IMG/VR virus record: IMGVR_UViG_3300032053_000237
Coordinates: 1 to 36,611 of that record
Length of the DNA: 36,611 nucleotides
Origin: a virus
Direction: 5' to 3' (one strand)
Shown: piece after piece, positions 1,315 to 35,533 of the stretch
Layout of the letters: every line of letters begins with the position of its first letter
Numbering within the stretch: the stretch's first letter is position 1
Translations under genes and position numbers: made by a program
Notes under the pieces: model-generated
The model's database searches: none
Seen by the model: the letters and a program-made list of their open reading frames with translations, nothing else
Told to the model about the DNA's origin: nothing

Positions 1315-1321
1315 ATTATAC
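1315..1321 (-). promoter_or_regulatory. GTATAAT promoter element upstream of tmk
   Basis: Exact GTATAAT (context CGGTATAAT) between the M42-like peptidase stop at 1335 and the tmk start at 1265. It is one of 11 identical gap-located copies. A start of transcription about 6-7 bases downstream would give a leader of roughly 40 bases containing the tmk ribosome-binding site. Confidence 0.65.
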
Positions 1322-1334
1322 CGATTATTGTGCG

Positions 1335-2375
1335 TTACTGGATAAGATGTTGGATAGAAAACAGCAATTGGACTAACGCTTCCACGTCGCGCATGCTTAC
1401 GATCTCAGGGGCTGGTTTTCCGCTCAATGATTCATTATGATAATTATCCACCACAACCGCGATACCACCAACCTTAAAATTATGCCGTTTAAAGGCAGTA
1501 CTGTCGGTAGTTCCCTTTGAATGATGTTGTTTTTGAAAACTACTAGGTAATTGAGACGCGGCTTCTTCAATTAAATGAATAACTTTATCATCAAATTTCG
1601 TGTGCTTATCGCGATAGCGTACTATTGGTCCTTTACCTCGCGCTAAATCGTCGACGGCACGAGTGAAATCAACTGAAATTATAGATACCTTCGATGGATC
1701 AACGAGATGTCGCTTCGCTTCTGCGGATGCCCCTCTTAGGCCAATCTCTTCAGACGTACTCAATAACCCAACCATCTTTTTATCTTTAATATCTTTAAAC
1801 GCTGATATCATCGCGGCCACGCCGATCAGGTCATCGGCAGATTTAGTGATCCAATTTTCGCCCGCATCGGCAATACCGGAAGGAACTTCTGGATATGTCA
1901 GATGCGCACCCCACGGTCCAAACGACTTAAGAACATTATCCGTGTCATCACTTGGGGTTAAACCAAGCAATTCCACCTTAACGCGCCTATCATCGCCAAC
2001 TAATTGATCGTCGACGATTATCCCACCAACAGTTACACGATATTTTGAATCTGAAAAAACATGCACTGCCGCACCCTTTAAATGTTTAGGGCCACCGCCT
2101 AACCATCGCCCGACGCCGATCATGGTATCTTTTTCTTTATGAAAAGAATCGAGCGCGATCCCAGGATGATCAACGTGCGTGACTAGGACTATCTTGACAT
2201 TTTTTAAATCATGTGGACCGGACGCGTTTACCCACATGTTGGCGGCTTCATCAACCCAGTATGAAATGCCGAAATGTCGGCATAGGCGCATGCACTCTTT
2301 GATGACCCAACTTTCGCGCGTTGGTGCGGTTGGCTGAGTGACGATATGGAGAATCGCGTAGTTTAATGATAGCAT
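1335..2375 (-). CDS. M42/M20-like zinc aminopeptidase-type metallohydrolase
   Basis: 346 residues with the metal ligands of the co-catalytic zinc peptidases in the right order: H67-x-D69 (THVDHPG), D182 (SADDLIG), catalytic E209/E210 (STSEEIG), D236 (SVDFT) and H313 (DNYHNE). An inserted region at about 80-150 matches the dimerisation-type insert of M42 enzymes. Members remove N-terminal residues from peptides. Why a phage would carry one is unknown; protein turnover or virion/host peptide processing are guesses. The ATG at 2375 has no Shine-Dalgarno sequence and lies 6 bases after a TATAAT box, so its mRNA may be leaderless. All ligands appear present, so it is probably active. Confidence 0.82.
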   Translation of the reverse strand: MLSLNYAILHIVTQPTAPTRESWVIKECMRLCRHFGISYWVDEAANMWVNASGPHDLKNVKIVLVTHVDHPGIALDSFHKEKDTMIGVGRWLGGGPKHLKGAAVHVFSDSKYRVTVGGIIVDDQLVGDDRRVKVELLGLTPSDDTDNVLKSFGPWGAHLTYPEVPSGIADAGENWITKSADDLIGVAAMISAFKDIKDKKMVGLLSTSEEIGLRGASAEAKRHLVDPSKVSIISVDFTRAVDDLARGKGPIVRYRDKHTKFDDKVIHLIEEAASQLPSSFQKQHHSKGTTDSTAFKRHNFKVGGIAVVVDNYHNESLSGKPAPEIVSMRDVEALVQLLFSIQHLIQ

Positions 2376-2381
2376 AATATA

Positions 2382-2388
2382 ATTATAC
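2382..2388 (-). promoter_or_regulatory. GTATAAT promoter element, leaderless type
   Basis: Exact GTATAAT (TAGTATAAT) in the 33-base gap upstream of the peptidase gene. TATAAT ends 6 bases before the ATG, so a normal start site would fall on or next to the start codon. Confidence 0.65.
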
Positions 2389-2408
2389 TATTCTGATTAT
2401 TTTATTTA

Positions 2409-3209
2409 TTATTCGCCTTCTTTTTTCTGTTTATACGCTGCCTTTACAGCGGCATTGGGATGATTTGCCAATTTTTCATGATGTTCTGGAGTCAGGTGTT
2501 GATAGTGGTGATGTATAATAGCTATTCCTTTTTTTTCATCGCCAGAATCGATATGTTCATGAATCTTTTCAGGCGATATAGAAATCGCTTTTATTCGAGA
2601 CTTATGAGCTTTCTCGGGTCTTCCAAATTCCCCATACCACTGGCATCCTGCCCCTCTTCCTCTCTTTTCAAGCGACTCAAACTCTGATCTCATTGATTTC
2701 CCTAATGGCCGATTCACGCTTGATGCCGCACCCGCGCCTGATATTGTTGGTGGAACACGCGGGGCAGGGGCATTCACCATCCCTTGTTTCTCCATCTCTT
2801 CTTTAGTCATTGGGGCAGTAACAGGGATAAGTCGAAATCCTTTACTTTCTAAATTTTTAGTTGACCCAAATCGTTGATTGATCGCTTCGAGATGCATAGG
2901 ATTTTTAGTGATTTGATGAGCACCATCGTGTATATGATACATCTTTATAGCGGAACTCGATGCTTGCGGCGCTTGGTCTGACTGCGCGAGAACCCCACCA
3001 TCCGGCGATATGCTACCTGAGCCACTGACTGTCATACCATCGCCGTATTTATTCAACTGCCACTGTCCACTTTTCGAAAATGAGATCTCTTCGGCTTTGA
3101 TGAAGTTACCGGCGCTGCTTGAACTTGGGGGTTTACCCGAGCTAGCGGCCAGATGTGCTACGCTGCTGGGATCGCGTTTCTCTATGATCTCTGTTTTCTT
3201 ATCTGACAT
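2409..3209 (-). CDS. Unknown low-complexity protein, possible virion component
   Basis: 266 residues. The first 100 are Ser/Gly/Ala-rich and probably disordered; a His-rich stretch (IIHHHYQHLTPEHHEK, about 229-244) lies near the C-terminus. No catalytic motif or membrane segment is seen. The ATG has a clear ribosome-binding site (AGGA, 5 bases before the start) and lies 2 bases after the stop of the preceding gene, so the two are translated as a pair. The partner is also low-complexity, which fits structural or virion-associated proteins, but I recognise neither. Confidence 0.72.
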   Translation of the reverse strand: MSDKKTEIIEKRDPSSVAHLAASSGKPPSSSSAGNFIKAEEISFSKSGQWQLNKYGDGMTVSGSGSISPDGGVLAQSDQAPQASSSAIKMYHIHDGAHQITKNPMHLEAINQRFGSTKNLESKGFRLIPVTAPMTKEEMEKQGMVNAPAPRVPPTISGAGAASSVNRPLGKSMRSEFESLEKRGRGAGCQWYGEFGRPEKAHKSRIKAISISPEKIHEHIDSGDEKKGIAIIHHHYQHLTPEHHEKLANHPNAAVKAAYKQKKEGE

Positions 3210-3211
3210 GT

Positions 3212-4510
3212 TTATCCTGCCTTTTTTGCGGTCTTTGGTTCAGCGGGTTCTTGTGAAACTGGCCTTGCGCTTTTCGTGCGAAGACTAGCGTGCAGTTGGT
3301 TCGCGGTTTTGAGCCAAGCGCCAAGGTGACGAGGGTCTTGTATTTGATTTAACTTAGCAAGCATATCTTGTTTATGCTCTGATGGCCAATGACTAGCCTT
3401 ATTGATAACGTTGCTCAAATACCACTTAACGGACTGCAATCCCTTTCCCCGCATACGCCCGGTTATCTCTTTAAGGTCATTGTGATCAAAAATTTGATTA
3501 GGGTTGGCAATATGCGTGGTGCGCGAAGCGGCAGTGGGTTGCGCTAGATCGCGCGCGGATGGACGTTGGGGACCTTCTTGCACGCTCTTCACGCTTGTAG
3601 GCGGCGTTCCTACCTTTGGTGCTACAGGAACTTCGCCCATCTGTATTCCTTTTTGTTTCCTATGCTCTCCAATAACCATATCCCGTATGCGCCCCAATGA
3701 TCCAGCAGAGGGATGTGCTTTCTCAGCCATCTGCAGGTACCATTCCCTAACATGCGGGTCAACGGGCGGAGACCATTTACTTATAGCGGCAATCAGATGC
3801 TGCTTACCAACTGCTGGATCGCGCATGATGGTAGTTCCTAAATGATCCAATACTTCTCTAGAAAATGGCTCATCTGAAGCAAGAACGTGCTTATAGGGAT
3901 CATAGGGACCTGGCTCGGTGACCTGTGGAAACGGGTATGGGTTAGGATCTTTTTTTGACCTCTGAGGATCCTCCTCATATCGACCAGTTTCCCCCTCTCG
4001 ACGGCCTCGTGCGGGATCTTTAGCCCACTCAACCATTGGATCATTGCTTACCGGCTGACGACGAATAATTTCCTCTGGTGATTTTAAGGGATCTGTGGCT
4101 GCTTGTTCTGGATCAACCGGTGGCGGCGGCGTTTTTGCGGCTGGCGCAACCTGCGCCACTGCTGACGGCGTCGGCGTTAAAAATTGAGGACCTGGTTTTG
4201 GAGAAGCCGGCGTAGTAGGTTGAGAAGGGGGAGTTACATTTTCTGGCACCGGTCGTGGACGATTCTGCATCGCTATTTTCATGGAGTCAGGGGTGTGCGC
4301 GGCCTGACGCGCGATATCAATGGCGCGCTCTTGGTCTTCGGCGGAAAGAGGTTTCTTCGCTTTGACCCTAATTGTTTTTACTTTATGTAGTTGATCATTT
4401 AACGTTTCTAATTTAACAAGCAGTGATGGGAAGGATCGTAGGTCTCGTGCGGTCACGGCCTTTAAGATAGGTTGAATCTGCTTCAATAATGAAGAAAGAT
4501 CACGTCGCAT
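3212..4510 (-). CDS. Unknown Pro-rich modular protein
   Basis: 432 residues. An N-terminal helical part (1-60, with a Leu/Lys heptad character) is followed by a long Pro/Thr/Ala linker (about 85-210, with PPSQPTTPASPKPGP and TPPPPVDPEQ), a helical block at about 210-285, a second Pro-rich linker, and a last helical block at about 340-420. The architecture of folded beads on disordered strings is common in phage structural or adaptor proteins, but no family is recognised. Start ATG with GAGGT four bases upstream. The gene lies directly after a terminator and a GATATAAT box and is therefore probably first in its own transcript, ahead of the gene at 2409. Confidence 0.72.
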   Translation of the reverse strand: MRRDLSSLLKQIQPILKAVTARDLRSFPSLLVKLETLNDQLHKVKTIRVKAKKPLSAEDQERAIDIARQAAHTPDSMKIAMQNRPRPVPENVTPPSQPTTPASPKPGPQFLTPTPSAVAQVAPAAKTPPPPVDPEQAATDPLKSPEEIIRRQPVSNDPMVEWAKDPARGRREGETGRYEEDPQRSKKDPNPYPFPQVTEPGPYDPYKHVLASDEPFSREVLDHLGTTIMRDPAVGKQHLIAAISKWSPPVDPHVREWYLQMAEKAHPSAGSLGRIRDMVIGEHRKQKGIQMGEVPVAPKVGTPPTSVKSVQEGPQRPSARDLAQPTAASRTTHIANPNQIFDHNDLKEITGRMRGKGLQSVKWYLSNVINKASHWPSEHKQDMLAKLNQIQDPRHLGAWLKTANQLHASLRTKSARPVSQEPAEPKTAKKAG

Positions 4511-4532
4511 AGGTACCTCAACTTATATCCCC

Positions 4533-4540
4533 ATTATATC
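4533..4540 (-). promoter_or_regulatory. Promoter-like element GATATAAT
   Basis: Variant of the repeated GTATAAT element, placed between the terminator at 4544-4575 and the gene starting at 4510. Terminator followed at once by a promoter is the expected arrangement at a transcript boundary. Confidence 0.45.
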
Positions 4541-4543
4541 AAT

Positions 4544-4575
4544 AAAAAAGCCCAACACGCGAGCGCATGTTGGGC
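4544..4575 (-). terminator. Rho-independent terminator
   Basis: Perfect 8-bp stem, GCCCAACA (minus strand 4575-4568) pairing with TGTTGGGC (4557-4550), 10-base loop, followed on the minus strand by TTTTTT (4549-4544). It ends transcription of the small membrane-protein genes to the right. A weaker hairpin (about 4587-4604) precedes it. Confidence 0.88.
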
Positions 4576-4674
4576 ATATAAGTAAGCCTTCCGAGCGGAA
4601 AGCCGTTGCAAAGAATATATCTTTATCCTATCATAGACATAGGCTTAAACCCATCTTGTTTTAACGCGCTTAAA

Positions 4675-4971
4675 TTACAATGTATTTTTGCAGCGCCCGG
4701 CTTGCACATCGCGCAACAGCGGCGCCACAAAAAATCCGCATACGGGGATGGGAGGATTGCCGCATTTGATGACATTGTTAAAATTGCTGCAAACTGTGCA
4801 TTTCTTTATCAAGTTGTCATAAGATCGGATCGTGTACGTGATCGTATAAGCCCCGCAAACAAATTGTTTAGCGTATGTACGGTAAAAAACATAGTAAGCA
4901 GCATAGCATAGACTTATGATTAAACAGAATGCCACGATAATACTCTTTTTACTAACATTTTTAGGACTCAT
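4675..4971 (-). CDS. Small membrane-anchored Cys-rich protein
   Basis: 98 residues. Lys-rich start, then one hydrophobic segment (about 10-30), which should act as a signal anchor, and a C-terminal part with six Cys (39, 58, 61, 70, 78, 94), besides C16 and C22 in the membrane segment. An outward-facing, disulfide-bonded domain is inferred. Start ATG with a strong site (AAGAGGATATT). It is the last of a run of small one-TM proteins before the terminator at 4544. No family recognised; possible roles include altering the host envelope or excluding other phages, but nothing in the sequence proves either. Confidence 0.68.
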   Translation of the reverse strand: MSPKNVSKKSIIVAFCLIISLCYAAYYVFYRTYAKQFVCGAYTITYTIRSYDNLIKKCTVCSNFNNVIKCGNPPIPVCGFFVAPLLRDVQAGRCKNTL

Positions 4972-4980
4972 AATATCCTC

Positions 4981-5310
4981 TTATTCGTTTAACAACATAC
5001 AATTAGTGGTAGCGTATAAAAACGCGGTTTGACACGATGTTGAAGTTTTTTCTAAATTATACCGATCGGTGCGGTTAACCTGCTGCCAAATTTCACAGCG
5101 TATCGGAGTAACGACCCTGCCCTCCCATCTCAGCTTAAACATGTATATCTTACTAATATTATTAGATCCTTCTACGCATGAATAGGTAGCAGAACGTGGG
5201 CGGACTGGAGGTGGACCTAATGGGTCAAAGTAAGCGATCACGCCTAGCGCCCAAACGGCCAACACGACCGCGGTCATTAATAATACAGAACCGTTTTGCG
5301 TGTGTCTCAT
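4981..5310 (-). CDS. Small membrane-anchored Cys-containing protein
   Basis: 109 residues from ATG 5310: short charged start, hydrophobic segment about 8-27, then a Pro-rich spacer (PPPVRPRS) and a domain with four Cys (45, 72, 93, 104), probably two disulfides outside the cytoplasm. A second in-frame ATG at 5316 lies one base from the TATAAT box and would overlap any transcript start, so I prefer 5310, which is 7 bases after TATAAT. Neither start has a Shine-Dalgarno sequence, so a leaderless mRNA is likely. Function unknown. Confidence 0.65.
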   Translation of the reverse strand: MRHTQNGSVLLMTAVVLAVWALGVIAYFDPLGPPPVRPRSATYSCVEGSNNISKIYMFKLRWEGRVVTPIRCEIWQQVNRTDRYNLEKTSTSCQTAFLYATTNCMLLNE

Positions 5311-5317
5311 CAGCATA

Positions 5318-5324
5318 ATTATAC
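5318..5324 (-). promoter_or_regulatory. GTATAAT promoter element, leaderless type
   Basis: Exact GTATAAT (AGGTATAAT) between the stop of the gene at 5330 and the start at 5310. There are 7 bases from TATAAT to the preferred ATG. Confidence 0.6.
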
Positions 5325-5329
5325 CTATT

Positions 5330-5656
5330 TTAAGGCGCCTTACCGCACAACGCCCAATATCGTCTTGGCCCCTTCTTGGTAAAGGTCTTTAAGCAGGGCG
5401 CATCCTTATATATCGCTCCGCAGCGTCGAGTGGCATGCTTAAGATTGTCTTGGTCCGTGGCGTTCCAGGCTTCAGTGGATTCGTTGACGATCACTGTAAC
5501 CGGACATGTGGTTTTCACTATATTTTGATAAGAGGAGATGGGGCACATAGTGATGATATATGCTAGTAAAAGCGATAGCAGTAATAAGATGAACTGCATG
5601 AGCCATTTGCCTGGTTTATTCAATGGGGTATTACTCCCATAAAATATAACGTCCAT
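5330..5656 (-). CDS. Small membrane-anchored Cys-containing protein
   Basis: 108 residues: about 18 residues before a strong hydrophobic segment (19-37), then a domain with five Cys (38, 51, 79, 88, 104). The end (about 78-105) has a compact pattern, Cys-Gly, then APCL, then ALCG, that looks like a small disulfide-stabilised fold. The ATG at 5656 lacks a clear ribosome-binding site and lies inside the end of a smaller overlapping ORF (5620-5742), so it may depend on translational coupling. Function unknown. Confidence 0.6.
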   Translation of the reverse strand: MDVIFYGSNTPLNKPGKWLMQFILLLLSLLLAYIITMCPISSYQNIVKTTCPVTVIVNESTEAWNATDQDNLKHATRRCGAIYKDAPCLKTFTKKGPRRYWALCGKAP

Positions 5657-5742
5657 TCAATGATTAAGAATACAAGAATAACAACTCCAGCCACCTTTTC
5701 CCACTTCTTAAGATATATAGACTGTTCTTCTTTTAGATACAT
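5620..5742 (-). CDS. Possible 40-residue single-TM protein overlapping the next gene
   Basis: Short frame from ATG 5742 to TGA 5620. About 16 charged/polar residues (MYLKEEQSIYLKKWEK) are followed by a continuous hydrophobic helix (about 17-38). It fills an otherwise empty 119-base stretch and overlaps the start of the gene at 5656 by 37 bases in another frame. No good Shine-Dalgarno sequence is seen. The amphipathic start plus clean membrane helix argues for a real micro-protein, but chance cannot be excluded for so short a frame. Confidence 0.4.
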   Translation of the reverse strand: MYLKEEQSIYLKKWEKVAGVVILVFLIIEWTLYFMGVIPH

Positions 5743-5775
5743 TTGCTTACAATTCTTTTTTCTAGCCCCTTACAA

Positions 5776-5979
5776 TCATCGAAGCTTTTTAATGATCAGT
5801 GATAACTCTTGTATAGTTTTATTTAACGCGTTGATCTGCGATTGTCGCGCGTCCCACCCAAACCTCATAGCATGCGAGAGATCGTCCGCGCTAAAAAGCA
5901 ACGTAGGATCAAAGTTTGATCTTAGCGCCGCGGTCCGCTCTTTCACCCATTCATCAAACGTAAGTAGATTGTCATTCAT
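5776..5979 (-). CDS. Small helical unknown protein
   Basis: 67 residues from ATG 5979, which has GAGG six bases upstream. The longer frame begins at a TTG (5991) without a ribosome-binding site. Content is helical: an acidic/aromatic first half (LTFDEWVKERTAAL) and a Leu/Ile/Lys heptad stretch at the end (INALNKTIQELSLIIKKL) that could form a coiled coil. It begins 8 bases after the sensor kinase stop and is probably translated from the same mRNA. A regulator or partner of the kinase is possible but unproven. Confidence 0.62.
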   Translation of the reverse strand: MNDNLLTFDEWVKERTAALRSNFDPTLLFSADDLSHAMRFGWDARQSQINALNKTIQELSLIIKKLR

Positions 5980-5987
5980 TTTATGCC

Positions 5988-7829
5988 TCAAGCCGCTTTC
6001 GCCATGGCAAGCGGTATACGTACCGTGAACACGCTACCTTCTTGCGGGAGCGAGGCGCAAGTTATTGAACCCTTTAATTCTTGGACAATGTCATAGACTA
6101 TGGCCAATCCTATGCCGTTTCCCGATGTAGCGCGCGCGAGTAAGGTAGGGGGATCTAAAAGCATAGACACATGATCTTTTTCCATACCGCAACCGGTATC
6201 AATCATTTTGATGACGAAATAATCATTTTCCATCTCGGTATGAACAGTAATTTTTTTAGAAGCTCTATTCTTTAATGATTTATAGGCGTTAGAGAGCAGA
6301 TTAAGGATCATCTGTTGGAATTTATTAACATTACCGTGCGCTATGGTTTGAGGAGCATAGAACGCACGTAAAAGCGAAACGCCTTCTACGGCGTATCCAC
6401 GCTCAACAACAAGTAGCGCTTGCTCGATCGTGCCGCCGATGTTAAAATGTTCTGTTGTAGCGCATTCTGGCTGTAAAATTTTCTTAAATTTCCGCGTGGT
6501 GTCGATGATCGCATTGATCGCCTTATCCTGATTTTTAATAAATTTCTGCGTCTTAGAATTTTCAATCAGTAGGGGATCAGATCGCTCCAATAACTCTAAG
6601 TTGCCCTTGATGATCATCAAAGGATTATTTATCTCATGCATCAGCCCGCTCATCAAAGCGCCAACAGAAGCAACGCGGGACGCCTGAAGCAATTTTCCGT
6701 GCATTACGTCCTGCTGCGTTTGCGCTTTTTCCAATGATCCCAGCATGTTATTCATAGATTGAGCTAGATCCGATAGTTCATCTGCGCCGGACAAAAAGAC
6801 GCGAGCGGTTAAATCGTTGCTGGCGTGTATCCGGTTGATCAATGTGCGCAGACGAGAAACACGCAGCAGCACCATACGGTCGACGATCCATAGCGTCATC
6901 GCGATCATGATGAACATCGCTAGGAAAGAACCGCCTATCCCCAACACCGCCGCTTTACGCGCTTGCGCGTTGATAGGTCTCTGCGCGGTCATCATGATCG
7001 ATGCCGCAGGTTTACCATAGATATCTTTAAAAAGCGTAGTCACTATGATCTGATTTGGAAGGGGCGTTTCTACCATGATTGCGTGCTGCAACTCAGCGTC
7101 GCTCAGATCATCGATCGATTTTAAAGACAGAGTAAGCCGCGTAAGTTTCGATATCTTTCCGACCGTCTCCTTGCTCAACCACTGACCGGCGAGCATGTAA
7201 CCGCGCGGTGGCCCAGTGTAATCTGTGCGAAGGATAGGGCGGCTAACCAAGAGAAGAACGCCTTCCGGCAGAGAGATGATGCCTTGCGCTTGATCTTCTA
7301 AATGCGATTCTTTACCGTTCTTTGCCTGATCTTTTTTATGCGTAAAATGAGAGAAATACGGGTTTGCTAAAAGAAACTTCTTGGTGATAGATTTAGGGGG
7401 CGGCACTAATTTTCTCTTGATCGTGTCCGCGCCCTGAGCCCACACTATATTGCCCTTATCATCAACAAACGCCATCAGGTGAACGCCCATCACCAACATG
7501 GACTCGCCTAGATCATTTTTAAGGTAAGCCTGATTATGGTCTTGGATGAACTTATACGTAGCATCCCACCCAGAATAATCACCTAACTTAGCGGCTAGGA
7601 AATTAAATTCTTGCTCTATTTGACCTTGAACTTGCTGCGCTTGATGCGTCGCTTGATCTTGCTCTATCTTGTCTAGTTGTTGGTTGAAATACACGCCCAT
7701 AAACGTGTTGAAGCTGGCAAAACAAAGAAACTGCGCGATGACTACGATCAACAACGTCTTCTTGCGCAACGTCATGTGCTCAAACGGTCGACCGTCGATG
7801 ATATGGCGAACAAAGCGTGGTAACCTCAT
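5988..7829 (-). CDS. Membrane sensor histidine kinase (CHASE4-HAMP-HisKA-HATPase)
   Basis: 613 residues. TM1 about 24-48; extracytoplasmic sensor about 50-290, whose first part (FLAAKLGDYSGWDATYKFI, 77-95) matches the CHASE4 pattern; TM2 about 294-316; HAMP about 320-370; dimerisation helix with phospho-acceptor His398 (LMHEINNP); ATP-binding half with N-box N510/N514, G1 box D544-TGCG and G2 box GNGIGLA (570-576). Every catalytic motif is present, so autophosphorylation is expected. The start ATG (AAGGA upstream) overlaps the stop of the response regulator gene as ATGA, so the two are translationally coupled. A complete sensor kinase is rare in a phage. Signal and target are unknown. Confidence 0.92.
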   Translation of the reverse strand: MRLPRFVRHIIDGRPFEHMTLRKKTLLIVVIAQFLCFASFNTFMGVYFNQQLDKIEQDQATHQAQQVQGQIEQEFNFLAAKLGDYSGWDATYKFIQDHNQAYLKNDLGESMLVMGVHLMAFVDDKGNIVWAQGADTIKRKLVPPPKSITKKFLLANPYFSHFTHKKDQAKNGKESHLEDQAQGIISLPEGVLLLVSRPILRTDYTGPPRGYMLAGQWLSKETVGKISKLTRLTLSLKSIDDLSDAELQHAIMVETPLPNQIIVTTLFKDIYGKPAASIMMTAQRPINAQARKAAVLGIGGSFLAMFIMIAMTLWIVDRMVLLRVSRLRTLINRIHASNDLTARVFLSGADELSDLAQSMNNMLGSLEKAQTQQDVMHGKLLQASRVASVGALMSGLMHEINNPLMIIKGNLELLERSDPLLIENSKTQKFIKNQDKAINAIIDTTRKFKKILQPECATTEHFNIGGTIEQALLVVERGYAVEGVSLLRAFYAPQTIAHGNVNKFQQMILNLLSNAYKSLKNRASKKITVHTEMENDYFVIKMIDTGCGMEKDHVSMLLDPPTLLARATSGNGIGLAIVYDIVQELKGSITCASLPQEGSVFTVRIPLAMAKAA

Positions 7830-8221
7830 GGCGTTCCTTTCGCGAAAGTATCAAACAATCTCGCGAGATCTTGATAGCTAAACGGTTTCGCGAGATACCC
7901 GTCTACCAACCCGTCGATCGCCATCGTTCGCGCCCCCAAGAGATCGCCAAGTATGTTGCCAGACATAGCCACCATCCGCAGTCCGCAAAACCGGTTAGAC
8001 GCGGATATCGCCCTTATAAGCTCCTCGCCATCCCCGTTCGGCATGATTATGTCGGTCAACAGCACGTCGTACTTGTTCTTGACCAACTTATCGGCCGCCT
8101 CGTGTCCGCTGCAAGCGGTGTCCACGGTAAACCCCATGTCGCAAAGGTACTCGCCCAAGATGAACCGCAGCCCCTCTTCGTCGTCCACGATCAAGACGCG
8201 CCCTCGCTGGTCCTTGCTCAT
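7826..8221 (-). CDS. Single-domain response regulator (CheY-like receiver)
   Basis: 131 residues, a stand-alone receiver without output domain. Acidic pocket D14/E15 region (VDDEEG), phospho-acceptor D57 (LLTDIIMP), switch residue S87 (AMSGN) and conserved K112-P113 (LAKPF) are all present, so it should accept phosphate. The start ATG has GGAG eight bases upstream. Its last codons overlap the start of the sensor kinase (ATGA), making that kinase the obvious phosphodonor. Without a DNA-binding domain it must act through a partner protein, by passing the phosphate on, or as a phosphate sink for host signalling. Its codons are more C/G-ending than those of most neighbours. Confidence 0.92.
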   Translation of the reverse strand: MSKDQRGRVLIVDDEEGLRFILGEYLCDMGFTVDTACSGHEAADKLVKNKYDVLLTDIIMPNGDGEELIRAISASNRFCGLRMVAMSGNILGDLLGARTMAIDGLVDGYLAKPFSYQDLARLFDTFAKGTP

Positions 8222-8255
8222 GATAATTTCTCCGCGTTGAGATATAGACAGCAGT

Positions 8256-8262
8256 ATTGTAC
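8256..8262 (-). promoter_or_regulatory. Weak promoter candidate GTACAAT for the kinase/regulator pair
   Basis: One mismatch to the repeated GTATAAT element, in the 60-base gap between the HNH fusion gene and the response regulator start at 8221. It is the best candidate for transcription of the two-component pair. Confidence 0.35.
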
Positions 8263-8281
8263 AGGAGGATATGAGAAGGCG

Positions 8282-9454
8282 CTATTTTGTGGCAGCTATG
8301 GAGCGGAGGTAGGCGAGGACCTCGATCGCGGTGCCCATGAAGCCGTTGGCGCCGTACTTGAGGAAGCGCTTTTGGATCTCACCGTTACGGTTCATTATTG
8401 TGTTTGTCCATTGGCCCCCACGCAAAGCCATGCGCTCTCGAAGGATTTCTTCAGTTTCGCAGATGGCAACAAGGATGAAGTCGAGTTGGTCAGAGTGGCG
8501 ACGTATGGTGGTAGATATTTTGAAGGTTGGGTCATAGAGCTTTGACTTAGTAGAAGGAGTAAGCAGAAGGTCAAGGTGATTTTGTTTAGGGTTGTTATCA
8601 TAAGATATATAGTCGAACTTATCTAGCAATTGGTTGGCTACCCAGGACTTACCAGAGGCAGGGGCACCGATGAGAAGATAGACGGTAGGTTTGGAGGAGG
8701 AAGGAGGATGTAACCATTCATTAAATTGAACCGCTGTATTATCTCCCCTTCCGTATTGAGAGTGGAATTTTCCATGACATGATTCACATAAGCATGCGCC
8801 ATTGTCAATAGAAAGTCTTTGATCAGGAAACAGATTGAACGCATTCTTATGATGGGCGTGTAATTTTCCGCCCCTTCTATAGCACCTTTGACATATAAAA
8901 TTAGCCTTAGAGAGTACATCATATGTCCAGGCTTTACCCTCCAGTGATTGACGAAGAAGAGTATTCTCTGGAGAGACAAAACCGTTGAAATCTTCTATAG
9001 AAATATTGCGTTTAGAGCACGACATCTTGATATGCATTTGCTGTATTTGATCATCAGTGTAATTGGAGAACTGTTCTAATTTTTTCTGTCTAAGCACTGA
9101 TTTAGTATGTTCAGTGTGGCATTGCCCCTTAAAAGGCGATGTACCACCATTTTTTGCCCAATGATTCTCTACCATTTTTTTATGAGTTTCTTCTGTAAGA
9201 TGGCGCTTTTGACTGCGTTTGGCAGCAAGGACATAGTCTTGATTGTGGAAGCATTTAGAGCATAACTTGTTCTTTAGGGATTGCTTGAGTTTGATGTTGC
9301 GCTCTATACCACATTGTGGACAGTTGTCGATTACGCGGAGTTGTCCTTTTTTATCAACTTGAGGGGCATTCGCAATCTCTACCTTAGTGCGACGTTTTCG
9401 TGAAACATCTATATCGTAGCCAAGTAACTCTAATGTACGCTGCCTGTTGAACAT
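8282..9454 (-). CDS. HNH endonuclease fused to a P-loop kinase-like domain
   Basis: 390 residues. An N-terminal zinc knuckle (C45/C48, C65/C68) is followed by two basic helical stretches at about 84-125 resembling NUMOD3-type DNA-binding repeats (LTEETHKKM; TEHTKSVLRQKK). The HNH nuclease spans about 185-232, with Cys pairs CQRC (188-191) and CESC (223-226), catalytic H201/H202 and a distal His. A separate NTPase domain (about 256-390) follows, with Walker A GAPASGKS (263-270) and a downstream Arg-rich segment, like phage polynucleotide/nucleoside kinases. The HNH half looks like a free-standing homing endonuclease that has joined a kinase gene. Its ribosome-binding site lies in a hairpin. 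Confidence 0.85.
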   Translation of the reverse strand: MFNRQRTLELLGYDIDVSRKRRTKVEIANAPQVDKKGQLRVIDNCPQCGIERNIKLKQSLKNKLCSKCFHNQDYVLAAKRSQKRHLTEETHKKMVENHWAKNGGTSPFKGQCHTEHTKSVLRQKKLEQFSNYTDDQIQQMHIKMSCSKRNISIEDFNGFVSPENTLLRQSLEGKAWTYDVLSKANFICQRCYRRGGKLHAHHKNAFNLFPDQRLSIDNGACLCESCHGKFHSQYGRGDNTAVQFNEWLHPPSSSKPTVYLLIGAPASGKSWVANQLLDKFDYISYDNNPKQNHLDLLLTPSTKSKLYDPTFKISTTIRRHSDQLDFILVAICETEEILRERMALRGGQWTNTIMNRNGEIQKRFLKYGANGFMGTAIEVLAYLRSIAATK

Positions 9455-9474
9455 AATATCCTCTTATGGATATT
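9455..9474 (-). promoter_or_regulatory. Hairpin sequestering the ribosome-binding site of the HNH fusion gene
   Basis: On the minus strand AATATCC (9474-9468) can pair with GGATATT (9461-9455) across a 6-base loop, placing most of the AGAGG Shine-Dalgarno sequence in or beside the stem just before the ATG. The 5' arm overlaps the TATAAT box, so mRNA started from that box would lack the 5' arm and have a free ribosome-binding site, whereas read-through mRNA would be masked. Confidence 0.62.
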
Positions 9475-9478
9475 ATAC
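9472..9478 (-). promoter_or_regulatory. GTATAAT promoter element within the hairpin arm
   Basis: Exact GTATAAT (AGGTATAAT), 17 bases before the HNH fusion start codon. The predicted transcript start, about 9465, lies inside the hairpin loop. Confidence 0.6.
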
Positions 9479-14325: not shown

Positions 14326-14856
14326 TTACAAGATATGGCCTTTATTCTCAATATAAAGCGCGGCAAATCGCAATAAAATCGGATCATCGTGCAGTTTACC
14401 AATGCCCGTATTACAATGATTACATAACAATCCTCTTACTTGTCCGGTTATATGATCGTGATCCACCACAAATTGATCTTGTGGGCCACCGGGAATCAAG
14501 GTTTTACACAGTTTGCATGCGAAACCTTGTTGTTGAAGCAATTGATTATAGACGCTTAATGATATATTGTATTTTTTTAATAACGCATCATCTTTAGCAC
14601 ATGATCGACACCATCCGTTAAAGCCATCTGTACTTGATTTATTATATATAAAATTATTCTTCGCTTTTTCTTTTTTACAGCGACAACAAACCTTATTACC
14701 TTCTAAATTAGGATTAAACTCACGTAATTCTCTCTGTTTTCGATATTCCCGTATACATTGCTTACATTTCCCCGTTAAATGATCGCGATTATCGGCATGA
14801 TAATTAAACTCACTATATACCTTTTCAACTTGACACTGTTTACAAATCTTTTTCAT
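14326..14856 (-). CDS. Recombination endonuclease VII-type HNH nuclease
   Basis: 176 residues from ATG 14856, six bases after GAGG; an upstream in-frame ATG (14868) lacks a site. Two N-terminal zinc-finger-like repeats (C5/C8-C31/C34 and C57/C60-C83/C86) precede the nuclease domain, where C114/C117 and C145/C148 hold a zinc and the active region DHDHITG (132-138) with following Asn matches T4 endonuclease VII-related HNH enzymes. It may resolve branched DNA, but free-standing copies of this kind are often homing nucleases. It interrupts the packaging/head gene order between 14935 and 14257. A hairpin covers its ribosome-binding site. Confidence 0.88.
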   Translation of the reverse strand: MKKICKQCQVEKVYSEFNYHADNRDHLTGKCKQCIREYRKQRELREFNPNLEGNKVCCRCKKEKAKNNFIYNKSSTDGFNGWCRSCAKDDALLKKYNISLSVYNQLLQQQGFACKLCKTLIPGGPQDQFVVDHDHITGQVRGLLCNHCNTGIGKLHDDPILLRFAALYIENKGHIL

Positions 14857-16788: not shown

Positions 16789-16795
16789 ATTATAC
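16789..16795 (-). promoter_or_regulatory. GTATAAT promoter element
   Basis: Exact GTATAAT (AAGTATAAT) in the 71-base gap upstream of the kinase-like gene at 16753. A leader of about 28 bases with AAAGGG before the ATG is expected. Confidence 0.65.
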
Positions 16796-18902: not shown

Positions 18903-18909
18903 ATTATAC
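18903..18909 (-). promoter_or_regulatory. GTATAAT promoter element upstream of portal
   Basis: Exact GTATAAT (GAGTATAAT) in the 62-base gap between terminase and portal. A second box, GTTATAAT (18915-18922), lies just upstream of it, so tandem starts are possible. Confidence 0.65.
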
Positions 18910-21844: not shown

Positions 21845-22265
21845 CGTCTTTCAAAGAAGTCGTTTTCGAAGAGATCACCTCAGGAGAATAGTCCCGGGCG
21901 AGTCGAACATCAACTTCTGCCCTCCATTGCGGTCCGCAAAAATCCTTCACAAATTGATTAAGCATACCGCTAAAATTAAGATTTCCTTCCTTACGAAGCA
22001 AGCGCCGCAAGCGCCACATATTAAAGATCGATTGAGAAGGAAGCAACTTATCGTAAAGCCTTAGTGCACGATGTAGGCGCGGCTGTACGTACAAACGATA
22101 CACGACCGTCTTACTTTCGGCCTTCAAATCCATCTCAACGCCGTAAACGTTCTTATGGACGATGACACCAAACAAGAAAAGCTGATTCTTGGCTCCATCG
22201 GTTATAAGAGCGTTATTCAGCAGCCACCGTTGCTGGTCTATATACTCAGCTAATTTAGCATCCAT
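21828..22265 (-). CDS. Unknown protein at the start of the packaging operon
   Basis: 145 residues of mixed alpha/beta: hydrophobic strands about 28-62 (LFLFGVIVHKN; TVVYRLYVQ) and a basic helical part about 64-95 (MWRLRRLLRKEGNLNF). It has a good ribosome-binding site (AAGGA, six bases before ATG 22265), and a GTATAAT box 17 bases upstream of the start makes it the first gene of the transcript that continues into terminase. I do not recognise it; the basic middle would fit nucleic-acid binding. Confidence 0.62.
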   Translation of the reverse strand: MDAKLAEYIDQQRWLLNNALITDGAKNQLFLFGVIVHKNVYGVEMDLKAESKTVVYRLYVQPRLHRALRLYDKLLPSQSIFNMWRLRRLLRKEGNLNFSGMLNQFVKDFCGPQWRAEVDVRLARDYSPEVISSKTTSLKDDEKVA

Positions 22266-22282: not shown

Positions 22283-22289
22283 ATTATAC
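22283..22289 (-). promoter_or_regulatory. GTATAAT promoter element for the packaging genes
   Basis: Exact GTATAAT (TGGTATAAT, which also matches the extended -10 form) in the 34-base gap after the SbcD-like gene. The leader to ATG 22265 would be only about 11 bases and carries AAGGA. Confidence 0.68.
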
Positions 22290-25260: not shown

Positions 25261-26316
25261 TTACTTGCCGTTAAGGATATCGTCTGCCATCTTGAAGATG
25301 TCATCGTGCGGGCTAACCGCCTTCTGCGCAGCTACGGGCGCAGGGTTGCGCGTGGGAGCTACTACATAGCCATGATCATCGTCATCCGCGCTGTCCAACT
25401 TTAGCGCAACCTTAGGGACGACGGGGCGTGACGGAGTAACCGGTTGCGCAGTCTGCTGCATAACAGGCTGTGGCGCGGCGATCGCCGCAGGCGCTTGCTG
25501 AGCAACGGCGCCCGATGGCTCAAAGCCAACGACGTAGGCGTCAGGACTTTCTGCTATGATGAGTGGCATGTTCGCGAGCAGTACAGTCTTCAGCTCATCA
25601 TATGTCTTAACCTGATATATTGAGCTCAGATCATATACCATCGTCTGCCAGTTGTTAACAACGCTCTCAGGAAGTGCTGAGCGATCGTCAATATAGGTCG
25701 GCTGGTTGTTGATGCGGGTCATCATCTGGACCTTATCAACCTTATATTCTGTATCAAAGCCAATACCAGTGCGGGTCACGTTAAACCACACACCAGAATC
25801 ATCGTCAGCGCTGTTGACCGAGGTGGGATCCTGGGAATATTCCTGGATGTACTTAGCCATCGCGGTCTTGAGCTGCTTATGAGCAGTTGGCTTAAGTTCA
25901 ATAAGGCCAACCATGCCGGCCTTATCGACCGCGTTCCAAGCATACACGGTCTTTGGGCGGATCGCGCTGATGATCTTATTAAGCGCCTTGAAACGCATCT
26001 TGAGATCTTCAGCTTCCGCCGATGATGCAGAAACGAGAGACAGCTTCATGGCCTCGGCCTTCTTCTGCAGTTGCTCCACATACTCAAACACCGGGCACTT
26101 CTGCTCAGAGGTGATCGAGCTAGCGTACGGACGCATACGCCCAGACTCAGGATCAGTCATGCCCCAAAGAACGACCCAGCGACGATACGGATAACCGTTT
26201 GACTCATCGCCAAATGGGGGCAAAAAGCGAAAGAAATTACTACCTTCCTTCACCTTATGTCTGTTCCAAGTTTGTCGGGATTTTAAAGAATCTTGATTGA
26301 TCGTGATCTTACCCAT
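25261..26316 (-). CDS. Single-stranded DNA-binding protein, gp32-like
   Basis: 351 residues. The N-terminal block, with KEGSNFFRFLPPFGDES and a following Trp-rich strand and CPVFEY, is the pattern of gp32-type ssDNA-binding proteins with an OB core. The C-terminal third (about 265-350) is a disordered Pro/Ala/Gln linker ending in acidic residues and a short helix (DDIFKMADDILNGK), the usual partner-recruiting tail. It coats ssDNA during replication and recombination. Strong ribosome-binding site (AGGAG, six bases). Its leader contains a promoter box and a small hairpin. Confidence 0.88.
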   Translation of the reverse strand: MGKITINQDSLKSRQTWNRHKVKEGSNFFRFLPPFGDESNGYPYRRWVVLWGMTDPESGRMRPYASSITSEQKCPVFEYVEQLQKKAEAMKLSLVSASSAEAEDLKMRFKALNKIISAIRPKTVYAWNAVDKAGMVGLIELKPTAHKQLKTAMAKYIQEYSQDPTSVNSADDDSGVWFNVTRTGIGFDTEYKVDKVQMMTRINNQPTYIDDRSALPESVVNNWQTMVYDLSSIYQVKTYDELKTVLLANMPLIIAESPDAYVVGFEPSGAVAQQAPAAIAAPQPVMQQTAQPVTPSRPVVPKVALKLDSADDDDHGYVVAPTRNPAPVAAQKAVSPHDDIFKMADDILNGK

Positions 26317-26370: not shown

Positions 26371-26377
26371 ATTATAC
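26371..26377 (-). promoter_or_regulatory. GTATAAT promoter element upstream of ssb
   Basis: Exact GTATAAT (TGGTATAAT) in the 69-base gap before the ssDNA-binding protein gene. It allows ssb/recA-like expression independent of the long polymerase transcript. Confidence 0.66.
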
Positions 26378-26862: not shown

Positions 26863-26874
26863 AACGTTCTCCTA

Positions 26875-30348: not shown

Positions 30349-30361
30349 GGATTTCTCCAAA

Positions 30362-30399: not shown

Positions 30400-30420
30400 T
30401 ATGCGGTGCAATCTAAGATT

Positions 30421-30750
30421 TTAGAAGGAGAAGTTCAGGTCGACTTTCAAGATTGTTTGATCAGAGGTATTCAATGCAACGGTTATCTCGTCAAACATGA
30501 TATCTTCGCTGGAAAGCTGAGACTCAATGCCCGTCGAGAAAGCCTCCCAAAGTTTCCCAAGTCTTCGTATGTCCGCTGGCTGATACGATACCGCCGCCGT
30601 ATACGTGAACGACTTTAGCCCGCTAGCTGCGGCCGCCGCCATCGCAGTAGAGATAGAACTAAGGTTAGTAGTTACCAAAGATTGGCCGGCGTTACGTGCG
30701 GCAATTAGAGCCGTATCGAGTGCGCCGGAGTAAGTTGCCCGCAAAGTCAT
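30421..30750 (-). CDS. Unknown protein, possible virion component
   Basis: 109 residues: N-terminal helix with Ala-rich stretch (STAMAAAAASG), then beta-strands, ending in DLNFSF. No known motif. Its own promoter element (30780) and terminator (30362) make it a single-gene transcription unit, and its ribosome-binding site is strong (GGGGG, seven bases), so high expression is expected, as for a structural protein. Confidence 0.65.
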   Translation of the reverse strand: MTLRATYSGALDTALIAARNAGQSLVTTNLSSISTAMAAAAASGLKSFTYTAAVSYQPADIRRLGKLWEAFSTGIESQLSSEDIMFDEITVALNTSDQTILKVDLNFSF

Positions 30751-30779
30751 AACATTACCCCCTATTTATCTATAATTTC

Positions 30780-30786
30780 ATTATAC
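30780..30786 (-). promoter_or_regulatory. GTATAAT promoter element
   Basis: Exact GTATAAT (GTGTATAAT, the one copy with T rather than purine before the G) upstream of the gene starting at 30750. Confidence 0.62.
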
Positions 30787-30806
30787 ACTTAATACGGCTT
30801 AAATAT

Positions 30807-31106: not shown

Positions 31107-31141
31107 TGCGGCTCCTTTCATAAGTTATTGCGACAATGGCG

Positions 31142-31795
31142 TTATACCGCATCGGTATACGTGAAGTTCTTCGTAGATGAAACGCGAAGCTCGACATCAG
31201 GCGAGACAGAAACTACAGAGGCATATTGGGCTATACCGTATAACCGCATGCAGAAGAAAATAGCTATACCAACCGCGTCTACTACGTCTAGACGAAAGGC
31301 GATCGGTTTATCAGTTTTTTCGGAAATTGAGTGGTTAGGGAAACGTATTTTCCATCGCTCCCATAAACTCTGCTGAATCATGATTTTTTTAGCGGCTTGC
31401 TTACCATATTGTTTTTTCTGAGCAGTTGTTGGGGCAGCGCGCCCCGCGATCATCTTTTTCCACTCCACAGCGTTTAACATCCCATATGGCAAAGACAATA
31501 GACGACATTGCACTTGTAATGCGCCGCGATAATAATAATTAGTGTCAGTTCCTGACGCGAAGCGCGAAGACGCGAAATAATCTTCTATGCCGACTTCTTG
31601 AATTTTATGCCGCTTAATGAGATCACTAAACGCCGCCATCAAAGAAATACAATGATCCCCAGCATATTGCGAGGATCTATCGAATGGTATCAATCCGTAT
31701 TCGACGATAGTCCCCAAAGAATGACAATCATCAACCTCTAAAACAGCATAGCCGCATGAAGCGCCAGGATCTATTGCTAATAAACGAATAGGCAT
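31142..31795 (-). CDS. RuvC-like Holliday-junction resolvase/nuclease
   Basis: 217 residues with the RNase H-fold acidic tetrad of RuvC family nucleases: D9 (LLAIDPGASCGYA), E71 (VGIEDYFAS), D170 and D173 (RLDVVDAVG). Cuts four-way DNA junctions, as needed to debranch DNA before packaging. Sits with SbcC-like and other recombination genes. The ATG lies exactly 6 bases after TATAAT and has no Shine-Dalgarno sequence, so the mRNA is probably leaderless. The C-terminal 30 residues are outside the core. Confidence 0.85.
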   Translation of the reverse strand: MPIRLLAIDPGASCGYAVLEVDDCHSLGTIVEYGLIPFDRSSQYAGDHCISLMAAFSDLIKRHKIQEVGIEDYFASSRFASGTDTNYYYRGALQVQCRLLSLPYGMLNAVEWKKMIAGRAAPTTAQKKQYGKQAAKKIMIQQSLWERWKIRFPNHSISEKTDKPIAFRLDVVDAVGIAIFFCMRLYGIAQYASVVSVSPDVELRVSSTKNFTYTDAV

Positions 31796-31801
31796 ATGAC
31801 T

Positions 31802-31808
31802 ATTATAC
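31802..31808 (-). promoter_or_regulatory. GTATAAT promoter element, leaderless type
   Basis: Exact GTATAAT (AAGTATAAT); six bases to the resolvase ATG at 31795. Confidence 0.66.
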
Positions 31809-31827
31809 TTAATGGATAAAAGTGGAA

Positions 31828-32094
31828 TTACTCAGACTTAAGCGTCCATTGACCATTCTTATGCGTCTTCAGCGCTTCTTTCGCGCGCTTCGCAGCGTCT
31901 AGATGTAGATCTTTAGACGCGGAATGTAGCTGCTCTGTCATCTTAACCGGATCTTTATGCGAGGTGGGAGTTATACCTGGCATGCCCTTAGTTTTGGGCA
32001 TTTTTGGCGCTGGGAGTTTGGGCATTTGTATCGCTGCCTTCACCGCCTTCAATAATTCTTGAAATTGCTCTAACTTAGTGAATAATTGTTCCAT
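31828..32094 (-). CDS. Small unknown protein with Pro/Lys linker
   Basis: 88 residues: N-terminal helix (LFTKLEQFQELLKAVKAAI), a Pro/Lys/Met linker (PKLPAPKMPKTKGMPG) and a second basic helix. No known motif. The ATG lies 7 bases after GATATAAT (32102-32109) and has no Shine-Dalgarno sequence; leaderless start or re-initiation after the SbcC-like stop codon, which overlaps that box, are both possible. Confidence 0.58.
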   Translation of the reverse strand: MEQLFTKLEQFQELLKAVKAAIQMPKLPAPKMPKTKGMPGITPTSHKDPVKMTEQLHSASKDLHLDAAKRAKEALKTHKNGQWTLKSE

Positions 32095-32101
32095 ATTATT
32101 G

Positions 32102-32109
32102 ATTATATC
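32102..32109 (-). promoter_or_regulatory. Promoter-like element GATATAAT
   Basis: Variant of the repeated element, 7 bases before the ATG at 32094. Part of it is also the SbcC-like stop codon, so coincidence is harder to exclude. Confidence 0.38.
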
Positions 32110-33875: not shown

Positions 33876-34414
33876 GCGGTCAGCCAAGGAAGATAGTGCT
33901 GCATATTCTGGATTTGGCCGGCGAGACGTCTCAACATAAAAGAATAGTCAGTGCCGCGCCGCAAGTTGCTCTTATCGCGGACTATGGCGTGTAGGTGCTC
34001 TAACTCCATCACCACCGTATTGAACTGCGTTAATGTGCGGTCTAATTTCATTTCTCCAAAAATATCGCAAGCACGCAGCAATGGATCCTCTCGAAACTTC
34101 CTTAATACGCCTTGGAATAAGGTAGCCGAGGATATAGCAAAATTAGGCAATTCCCCCAACACGATACGATGTAAAATCAATTGGCGCAGTATGTTGTGTT
34201 GCCGTTGAACATTAACATCTCGTTTATCGAGATGCTTGTACGGCTCAATTTCTTGCTTTAAATTTTCCACTATATTGATGATAATCTTACAAATGGCGTG
34301 ATACGCCCTTTCTTCTGAAATGCCATCCTTCCGCACCACAGATTGAATAGCGTTAACAATGCTAGTATTAAACCCCTTATTGAGTAAATTTTGAATAGCG
34401 TTGCGCGAAATCAT
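33866..34414 (-). CDS. Unknown helical protein linked to the receiver gene
   Basis: 182 residues from ATG 34414, eight bases after GAGG and overlapping the stop of the receiver gene as ATGA. The longer frame (34459) lies inside the receiver gene and lacks a site. Nearly all helix; long charged helices (NIVENLKQEIEPYKHLDKRD) and Leu-rich segments. No motif recognised. Tight coupling to the receiver makes it a candidate output or partner protein, or a link between signalling and recombination, since it also overlaps the SbcC-like gene. Confidence 0.66.
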   Translation of the reverse strand: MISRNAIQNLLNKGFNTSIVNAIQSVVRKDGISEERAYHAICKIIINIVENLKQEIEPYKHLDKRDVNVQRQHNILRQLILHRIVLGELPNFAISSATLFQGVLRKFREDPLLRACDIFGEMKLDRTLTQFNTVVMELEHLHAIVRDKSNLRRGTDYSFMLRRLAGQIQNMQHYLPWLTACK

Positions 34415-34749
34415 GCAATTTTCCTCAAAGAGCGCACTATTGGAGCTGTACCTCTGCACTTATCAACAATCTGATATTGATCAATTTGACGCGCGATCCC
34501 AGACATAATTAGCGTAGGCAATTTAATGCCCTTTTTATCCAAAATTTCCAATAACTCCCATCCGTTCATATCCGGCATATATGCGTCCATTAAAATGGCA
34601 TCTGCAAGAGCTACCTTTTTAAGCGCTTCTTTGCCCGACATCACGGGCATCACTGTAAATCCTGCTTTTTTTAAAGAAAAGCATAATACAGCTAAAAAAT
34701 CAGCGTCATCGTCAATTACCAAAATATTCTTTCTTTTTTTTGAATTCAT
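34411..34749 (-). CDS. Single-domain response regulator, shortened
   Basis: 112 residues. Receiver domain with acidic pocket D13/D14 (VIDDDAD), phospho-acceptor D55 (ILMDAYMPDMNG) and switch S83 (LIMSG). The usual Lys-Pro near the end and the last helix are not recognisable; the C-terminus reads RGTAPIVRSLRKIA, so phosphotransfer chemistry could be altered. It follows the kinase-like gene after 2 bases and overlaps the next gene by ATGA. Start ATG with AGGTGG upstream. No output domain. Confidence 0.85.
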   Translation of the reverse strand: MNSKKRKNILVIDDDADFLAVLCFSLKKAGFTVMPVMSGKEALKKVALADAILMDAYMPDMNGWELLEILDKKGIKLPTLIMSGIARQIDQYQIVDKCRGTAPIVRSLRKIA

Positions 34750-34751
34750 AA

Positions 34752-35480
34752 TTACGCCACCTGTTGATATTGTACATTATCCGTTAACGCCATCTGTCGG
34801 CGCTGTATCTCATTAGTCTGCATAGGAATAACTACGGTTAACGCATGGCATGTTATGCCGTTGCAATCTTCTAATTTAATTTTACCGCCAATATTAAGAA
34901 CTAAGTCCTCAAAAAACTTTATGTTTTCATCAGTAACCGTCCAAGTTCCATTAGAGACTATAGGAACAAGCGTGATATGGAGCTGATCATCAATCATCTG
35001 AACCTGTATTTTTAATGTCATTGGATCAAAGATTGCAATGGATTTATGTTTCAAAAAATAACAGCATAAGTATCCTAAATTACAAGTAAAATAATCGGGC
35101 GATGCATTAATGTGTGCTGATTTTATATTTAATGACAGATCAATCGTTTTATTGAACTTCTTAAATAATGAATTTAAAAAAGAACTAAGCTCATCCAACG
35201 ATTCAACTGCATCAAAAGATATTTTAGCATCTGACATATGATTTATTGTTGACATGCCCGTGCATAACTCTGACATGCGCTTTAATGTTTTTTTCATGCG
35301 ATAAAGCGTCATTTCTCCCTTCATGTTCACCTGCGTTGACAGAATATCTAAGCAACCTAAAAGCACGCCAGCAAGACCAGAAAAATCATGATTCACTGGA
35401 GAAGCTATGGCGTTCAAAATAGCTTTATGTGCATCAGATAATACATTAGGAAGATCCTTTTCAAATATAGCAGAATTCAT
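34752..35480 (-). CDS. Histidine kinase-like protein with degenerate ATPase half (phosphotransferase or pseudokinase)
   Basis: 242 residues, no membrane segment. A dimerisation/phosphotransfer helix pair with likely acceptor H31 (VNHDFSGLAGVLLG, the HDF-type H-box) and second helix (about 55-80), followed by a kinase-ATPase-like fold (about 95-215) ending in the typical NIGGKIKLED...IP strands. The glycine-rich G1 and G2 boxes are not seen, and the N-box is reduced to N134. It should not bind ATP normally and resembles ChpT-type phosphotransferases or pseudokinases. Its receiver partner follows. A GTATAAT box precedes the gene. Confidence 0.72.
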   Translation of the reverse strand: MNSAIFEKDLPNVLSDAHKAILNAIASPVNHDFSGLAGVLLGCLDILSTQVNMKGEMTLYRMKKTLKRMSELCTGMSTINHMSDAKISFDAVESLDELSSFLNSLFKKFNKTIDLSLNIKSAHINASPDYFTCNLGYLCCYFLKHKSIAIFDPMTLKIQVQMIDDQLHITLVPIVSNGTWTVTDENIKFFEDLVLNIGGKIKLEDCNGITCHALTVVIPMQTNEIQRRQMALTDNVQYQQVA

Positions 35481-35526
35481 AGTCTACCGCCCTTTATGGA
35501 TTTGTAATTGCCTAAATTTCGTAATT

Positions 35527-35533
35527 ATTATAC
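35527..35533 (-). promoter_or_regulatory. GTATAAT promoter element for the second signalling module
   Basis: Exact GTATAAT (CGGTATAAT) in the 59-base gap before the kinase-like gene at 35480. It is touched by an inverted repeat on its upstream side. Confidence 0.65.

Follow-up and report, generated by a model that had tools for sequence, protein, structure and literature searches.

GTATAAT as the predicted core of a −35-less promoter class in a phage lineage

Introduction

The virus record IMGVR_UViG_3300032053_000237 of the IMG/VR database, 36,611 bases long and analysed here over its whole length (the window), has a GC content of 46% and carries nearly every gene on the minus strand. The heptamer GTATAAT recurs just upstream of its genes. 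Which kind of signal is this heptamer, and what reads it? A sequence-only reading of the window had taken it for a phage-specific promoter class needing only a −10-like core and possibly a phage factor. Judged from the statistics of the window and its relatives, GTATAAT is almost certainly the core of a −35-less promoter of the sigma70 family.

The head genes for terminase, portal, protease and major head protein are recognisable in the window, as are the replication genes for a DnaE-type DNA polymerase, a UvsX-like protein, SbcCD and a single-strand-binding protein. Portal, protease, scaffold position and head protein follow one another as in Bacillus phage SPO1, to whose head protein that of the window is about 30% identical. 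No close DNA relative of the window was matched in the phage collection; about 110 related IMG/VR loci were found, part of them on contigs of 150–177 kb. Since the searched collections held no close cultured relative, the gene control of these phages has so far been a blank. A literature search for GTATAAT in phages returned no relevant report.

Results

Enrichment of GTATAAT in the window and its relatives

The eleven copies reported by the sequence-only reading are all present at their coordinates in sense gaps, on the minus strand, which is the coding strand of nearly every gene. They are not all the copies in the window: four of the fifteen lie inside genes, two on the coding strand (5056 and 29680) and two on the opposite, plus strand (2513 and 17366). 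Gaps make up 4.7% of the window by our own gene list (earlier put at about 4%) and contain 11 sense copies and no antisense copy of the heptamer, compared with a mean of 0.66 and a maximum of 4 sense copies in 2,000 dinucleotide shuffles of the gaps. The base before the G is a purine in ten of the eleven copies, the exception being a T at 30780, and TG precedes the heptamer in exactly two, at 22283 and 26371. The three variants noted earlier, at 4533, 32102 and 8256, were also found in their places.

The family set comprised 88 non-redundant viral loci (1.40 Mb), the window included. In this set GTATAAT is the most enriched 7-mer of the sense gaps, with 271 copies found and 3.3 expected; antisense gaps hold 8. 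Its frequency inside genes and on the other strand is nowhere near that in sense gaps: there are 4.75 copies per kb in sense gaps, against 0.15 in antisense gaps, and within genes 0.07 on the coding strand and 0.04 on the opposite one. Sorted by the first base, NTATAAT occurs in sense gaps 271 times with G, 38 with A, 13 with T and 7 with C, which places G at −13 in about 82% of the sites. The enrichment over shuffled or expected background thus holds in the window and in the related loci, and the observation is real and stronger than the earlier reading could see.

No such enrichment was present in the controls, taken from SPO1 and phiEco32 (50 kb each) and from two Bacteroidota genome bins (200 kb each). 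A 6-mer search for a second promoter class in the gaps without GTATAAT found nothing shared across genomes. One genome, G009 (L134-L142), stands apart with the word AACCGA, which its gaps without GTATAAT contain 17 times, against an expectation of 1.1, and which the other strand has once; it is perhaps another regulatory word there.

Spacing to the start codon and the leaderless class

Between TATAAT and the start codon lie 6 nucleotides (nt) in 63 of the 271 copies and 7 nt in 10; distances of 11–16 nt are almost empty, and a broad distribution begins at 17 nt. At the 6- and 7-nt spacings the start codon is ATG in all cases. The remaining, leadered copies have a step from T (58%) to A (66%) at the same position, 7 nt past the last T. 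A site resembling a Shine–Dalgarno (SD) sequence precedes 118 of 143 leadered genes (17–70 nt) and 19 of 73 leaderless genes. The empty zone would be explained if the mRNA starts either at the ATG itself or far enough upstream, by about 11 nt, for the leader to accommodate an SD site.

The same spacing was recovered independently of the word. Among 216 genes lacking an SD site, 66 have TA...T at exactly −12 to −7 of the ATG; other offsets gave 4–17. The logo of these 66 genes reads T77 G55 R(G64,A33) T A T70 A77 A95 T, and the base at −1 is a pyrimidine. An element of the −10 type about 12 nt before the ATG, at one specific offset and without an SD site, is what marks a leaderless transcription unit. 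The ATG peak of the leaderless genes and the T/A step of the leadered ones both fall 7 nt past the last T, where the start is predicted. The ATG peak, the SD-poor leaderless genes and the T/A step together point to a sigma70-type −10 element, and about a quarter of these promoters would drive leaderless mRNAs.

The sequence-only reading had seen no shared −35 box, and none emerged in the family: upstream of the family sites TTGACA is not preferred at any spacing, 8 to 39. A classic −35/−10 sigma70 promoter was consequently rejected. In the remaining gaps, those without the word, −35/−10 pairs of the sigma70 type are not above shuffles. Weak T-runs near −30 to −28 and an A at −26 are seen at family sites. 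The proposed class, −10-like at its core and lacking a −35 box, extends lineage-wide, but it is not purely a −10 core: family-wide, T at −15 (54–77%) and G at −14 (44–55%) are partly conserved, even though TG is present in only 2 of the 11 window copies. The class comes close to the extended −10 promoter, G at −13 being nearly fixed.

Conservation at orthologous genes

The statistics also show the word to be conserved at particular genes. It stands upstream of 25 of 33 orthologues of the thymidylate kinase gene, 36 of 50 of the kinase-like gene 15944-16753, 32 of 57 of the protease gene, 5 of 6 of the HNH endonuclease gene and 9 of 16 of gene 21828-22265. For the portal gene it is found at 30 of 56 orthologues, many of them leaderless and others leadered, and for the single-strand-binding protein gene at 13 of 23, always 50–67 nt away. 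The word at 30780 (gene 30421-30750) is not conserved in 10 orthologues. GTATAAT is absent upstream of the head protein gene (0 of 63), its preceding neighbour (0 of 42), and the terminase (0 of 35), UvsX (0 of 18) and SbcD (0 of 15) genes, all five of which probably lie inside operons. In five genomes of 167–177 kb, the word occurs in 44 of 167 gaps before conserved genes and in 20 of 295 before unique genes (p about 1e-8), a count in which some of the unique open reading frames (ORFs) may be false calls.

Polymerase and sigma candidates

No RpoB-type (RNA polymerase beta) subunit was found in the nine relatives searched, with the controls working, so that use of the host core enzyme is likely. 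Sigma-like candidate proteins of three kinds are present, and every complete relative encodes candidates that have sigma region 2 only.

The first, the fam2 family, consists of open frames of 123–185 amino acids in 13 of 15 long records (30 loci), whose members are 54–81% identical to the first member; it has no match in cultured phages. An AlphaFold model of fam2, with a predicted local distance difference test score (pLDDT) of 79, has as its best matches among solved structures almost exclusively sigma region 2, including that of T4 gp55 (gp55 in 7d7c: Z 6.5, 77 residues, root-mean-square deviation (rmsd) 2.6). A sequence search of the PDB with fam2 gave only repeat or chance matches (WD40, beta-lactamase) and was discarded. 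The fam2 profile does not match the second kind of candidate significantly.

That second kind is a sigma region 2 domain of the head cluster, which is either part of a protein of about 500 amino acids encoded near the head genes or a separate protein of 123–164 amino acids. Its fold matches region 2 of sigma28/sigma70 (Z 13, rmsd 1.4 over 79 residues), and one family member is recognised as a sigma factor by PHROG (E 7.8e-12) and Pfam (1.3e-9). In L120, L121 and L010:16044-17720 a large protein encoded about 5–6 kb after the head protein gene carries the sigma-region-2-like domain at its end, and G007, G009 and G011 encode this domain on its own, as a small protein.

The third kind is a truncated sigma70 of 228–232 amino acids with regions 1.2, 2 (including the WW pair) and 3, which stops just after 'REEKxxRxxFG' in region 4.1 and so lacks the −35-binding helix-turn-helix of region 4.2. 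It is encoded in 21 loci that without exception belong to this phage family, and the protein always ends at the same point (L228, L230, L232-L236, L238, L239, L242, L243, L245, L246, L248, L278 and L308-L313). E. coli sigma70 from which region 4.2 has been removed still transcribes from an extended −10 promoter (PMC2613000). None of the three kinds of candidate has a part that would read a −35 box, in keeping with the promoter class. In 47 loci of other phages (L317, L324-L328, L331, L332, L338, L339 and others) sigma70-like proteins run past region 4.1; the tails that were read have no region 4.2 helix-turn-helix, and these loci are not rich in GTATAAT.

The host question

Three relatives sit in Bacteroidota genome bins. 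The two bins examined have TANNTTTG promoters (4.0 and 1.6 per kb) and no SD enrichment, whereas the phages have GTATAAT and strong SD sites; in the phages TANNTTTG occurs at 0.46 per kb in sense gaps and at 0.37–0.49 in genes. An S21 gene was looked for in ten phage records and not found. Because the promoter word and SD pattern of the bins are opposite to those of the phages and no S21 gene was found, Bacteroidota were not accepted as the host.

Promoter sites and other features of the window

For each site in the window, all on the minus strand, the start was predicted 7 nt past the last T of TATAAT. The predicted starts of the copies at 2382..2388 (start 2375) and 31802..31808 (start 31795) coincide with the A of the ATG, and the M42-type peptidase gene 1335-2375 and the RuvC-like resolvase gene 31142-31795 would thus be leaderless. 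The copy at 5318..5324 has its predicted start at 5310-5311, at the second ATG (5310) of ORF 4981-5316, which would be leaderless if that ATG is used. Leaders of 11 nt are predicted for the HNH endonuclease gene 8282-9454 (copy 9472..9478, start 9465, leader with GAGG) and for gene 21828-22265 (copy 22283..22289, start 22276), and one of 14 nt for the portal gene 17026-18882 (copy 18903..18909, start 18896). Longer predicted leaders of 23 and 29 nt precede gene 30421-30750 (copy 30780..30786, start 30773) and gene 15944-16753, which has a P-loop kinase-like start and no Pfam match (copy 16789..16795, start 16782). The copy at 1315..1321 (start 1308) would give a 43-nt leader to the ATG at 1265 of the thymidylate kinase gene 609-1265 (identified by Pfam), that at 35527..35533 (start 35520) a 40-nt leader to gene 34752-35480, and that at 26371..26377 (start 26364) a 48-nt leader to the single-strand-binding protein gene 25261-26316. 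The copies at 22283 and 26371 are full extended −10 elements, TGGTATAAT.

Of the two copies on the coding strand inside genes, the one at 5056..5062 in ORF 4981-5316 lies 84 nt upstream of ORF 4675-4971 and is a possible internal promoter. The variant GATATAAT, which has A at −13, occurs at 4533..4538 (predicted start 4526, 16-nt leader to gene 3212-4510) and at 32102..32107, 7 nt before the ATG at 32094 of gene 31828-32094, which would be leaderless. GTACAAT at 8256..8262 lies upstream of the receiver gene 7826-8221 with a predicted leader of about 28 nt.

The genes at 1335-8221 have no orthologues among the relatives, so this block looks inserted. Within it, at 5988-8221, the receiver-domain gene (Pfam Response_reg 3.4e-18) is directly followed by a CHASE4 histidine kinase gene, and the phage thus encodes a two-component pair. 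Recombination endonuclease VII (T4 gp49-like; Pfam 1e-20) is encoded at 14326-14853, between the protease and portal genes. Large arrays of tRNAs are present in the relatives G001 and G014 and include some with the anticodon CTA, of the amber-suppressor type (L127:6344-6499 (-), L169:2339-2416 (-)); despite these tRNAs, about 14–16% of the genes of G001 and G014 end in a TAG stop.

Discussion

We propose that the element consists of TATAAT at −12 to −7, G at −13 and a partly conserved TG at −15/−14, and that the host RNA polymerase core initiates at these sites. RNA synthesis would begin 7 nt past the last T, at an A with a pyrimidine before it. For about one promoter in four this first base would be the A of the ATG, giving a leaderless mRNA; otherwise a leader of about 11 nt or more with an SD site would result. 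The most likely reader would be a phage sigma without a −35-binding domain, namely the region-2-only protein found in nearly all long relatives, to which one subgroup would add the sigma70 that ends before region 4.2. On balance we consider this model as a whole, from the −35-less class and the host core to the leaderless quarter and the phage-supplied sigma, somewhat probable. We are more tentative about the wider statement that the lineage runs many core genes from −35-less promoters read by phage sigmas lacking the −35-binding domain (region 2 only, or sigma70 cut in region 4.1), with about a quarter leaderless and orthologues switching between leadered and leaderless forms; it may well be true, but we hold back from favouring it. 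The need for a phage factor, left as a possibility by the sequence-only reading, is plausible, with the sigma-like proteins as candidates for it.

Several points weigh against a dedicated phage sigma and the start sites assigned to it. The transcription start points are predictions from sequence, and GTATAAT is found before both head genes and replication genes. TATAAT with TG is also what many primary sigmas read. The likeness of fam2 to sigma region 2 lies in a predicted fold, with Z of 6–8 and Foldseek E > 0.1, and the match of its profile to T4 gp55 is not significant. The head-cluster domain is without the WW pair of sigma70. The truncated sigma70 is present in only 3 of 15 long records, yet the whole family uses the word, and the subgroup that encodes this protein has G at −14 less often (13 of 68 versus 115 of 262), which weakens the idea that this protein is the cause of the TG.

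Because the truncated sigma70 is missing from most users of the word and G at −14 is scarcer in the subgroup that has it, the host primary sigma stays a serious rival. It could read the sites as ordinary extended −10 promoters, the contacts to TG and G at −13 replacing those to the −35 box, with no phage factor involved; we regard this as a real possibility, though doubtful. The partly conserved T at −15 and G at −14 agree with it. TGn/−10 promoters without a good −35 box are known promoters of host sigma70 (PMC2613000), and in many bacteria TANNNT about 12 bp before leaderless start codons is known as a pattern of the host sigma (PMC3160421). Most known TGn promoters, however, keep at least three of six −35 matches (PMC2613000), and not even a −35 preference is present in the 271 sites. 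The prevalence of G at −13 also speaks against the host sigma; to our knowledge no requirement for this base has been reported for a primary sigma. Nor do the other gaps of these phages contain the −35/−10 pairs that a host sigma would read, and if the Bacteroidota bins were the true hosts, the host promoters would be TANNTTTG and not GTATAAT. The missing −35 boxes would be accounted for as well if a phage protein, in the manner of T4 AsiA, blocked or remodelled host sigma region 4 and thereby left extended −10 sites as the sole active ones. We judge such an appropriation improbable: no such factor turned up, none having been specifically looked for, and by itself it leaves the G at −13 unaccounted for. 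That GTATAAT is instead a binding site of a phage repressor or a processing signal has in its favour solely that the RNA ends are unmapped. The exact 6-nt spacing to the ATG, the genes without SD sites and the T/A signature in leadered genes fit transcription starts and little else, and this reading can hardly be entertained.

The motif yields many predicted gene start points from sequence alone, together with a set of phage genes predicted to be leaderless and with specific sigma candidates. In phages with −35-less promoters, a sigma70 that naturally ends just before region 4.2 would be nature's version of a classic truncation experiment, and the occurrence of the same gene in leadered and leaderless form offers a clean comparison within one lineage.

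The predicted promoters can be compared with several known systems. The late word of T4 is TATAAATA. T4 late promoters have a single −10-type element without −35 conservation and are read by the small region-2 sigma gp55 (PMC2988020). The phages studied here resemble this system, in which gp55 acts with gp33 and the gp45 clamp, in having a single −10-type element and no −35 box. They differ from it in the word itself, which has G at −13 and no fixed ATA after GTATAAT, in the many leaderless genes, and in the presence of the motif before replication genes as well. No match to the beta clamp or gp45 family was found in 8–9 relatives, a search that a divergent clamp could escape. The middle and late promoters of phiEco32, read by gp36, a sigma without region 4, have the element tAATGTAtA, no −35 box and a start 6–8 bp downstream (PMC8948821). 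The single element, the GTATA core and the missing −35 box are common to both, but upstream of the G phiEco32 has AAT where TG/TA is found here, GTATAAT is absent from the phiEco32 gaps examined, and the host of phiEco32 is known. With extended −10 sigma70 promoters, TGn-TATAAT, the class shares that a −35 box is not needed (PMC2613000); unlike them, it has only a partial TG, G at −13 as its best conserved upstream base and no −35 remnant. The TA-led leaderless genes of bacteria, which lack an SD site and carry TANNNT about 12 bp before their start codon (PMC3160421), have their −10 element at the same distance of about 12 nt from the ATG. The present case differs from them in that it concerns a phage lineage, that a single heptamer is nearly fixed, and that leadered and leaderless orthologues are mixed. 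The GTATAAT class thus works like the T4 late and phiEco32 gp36 promoters and, by word or sequence, is a member of neither.

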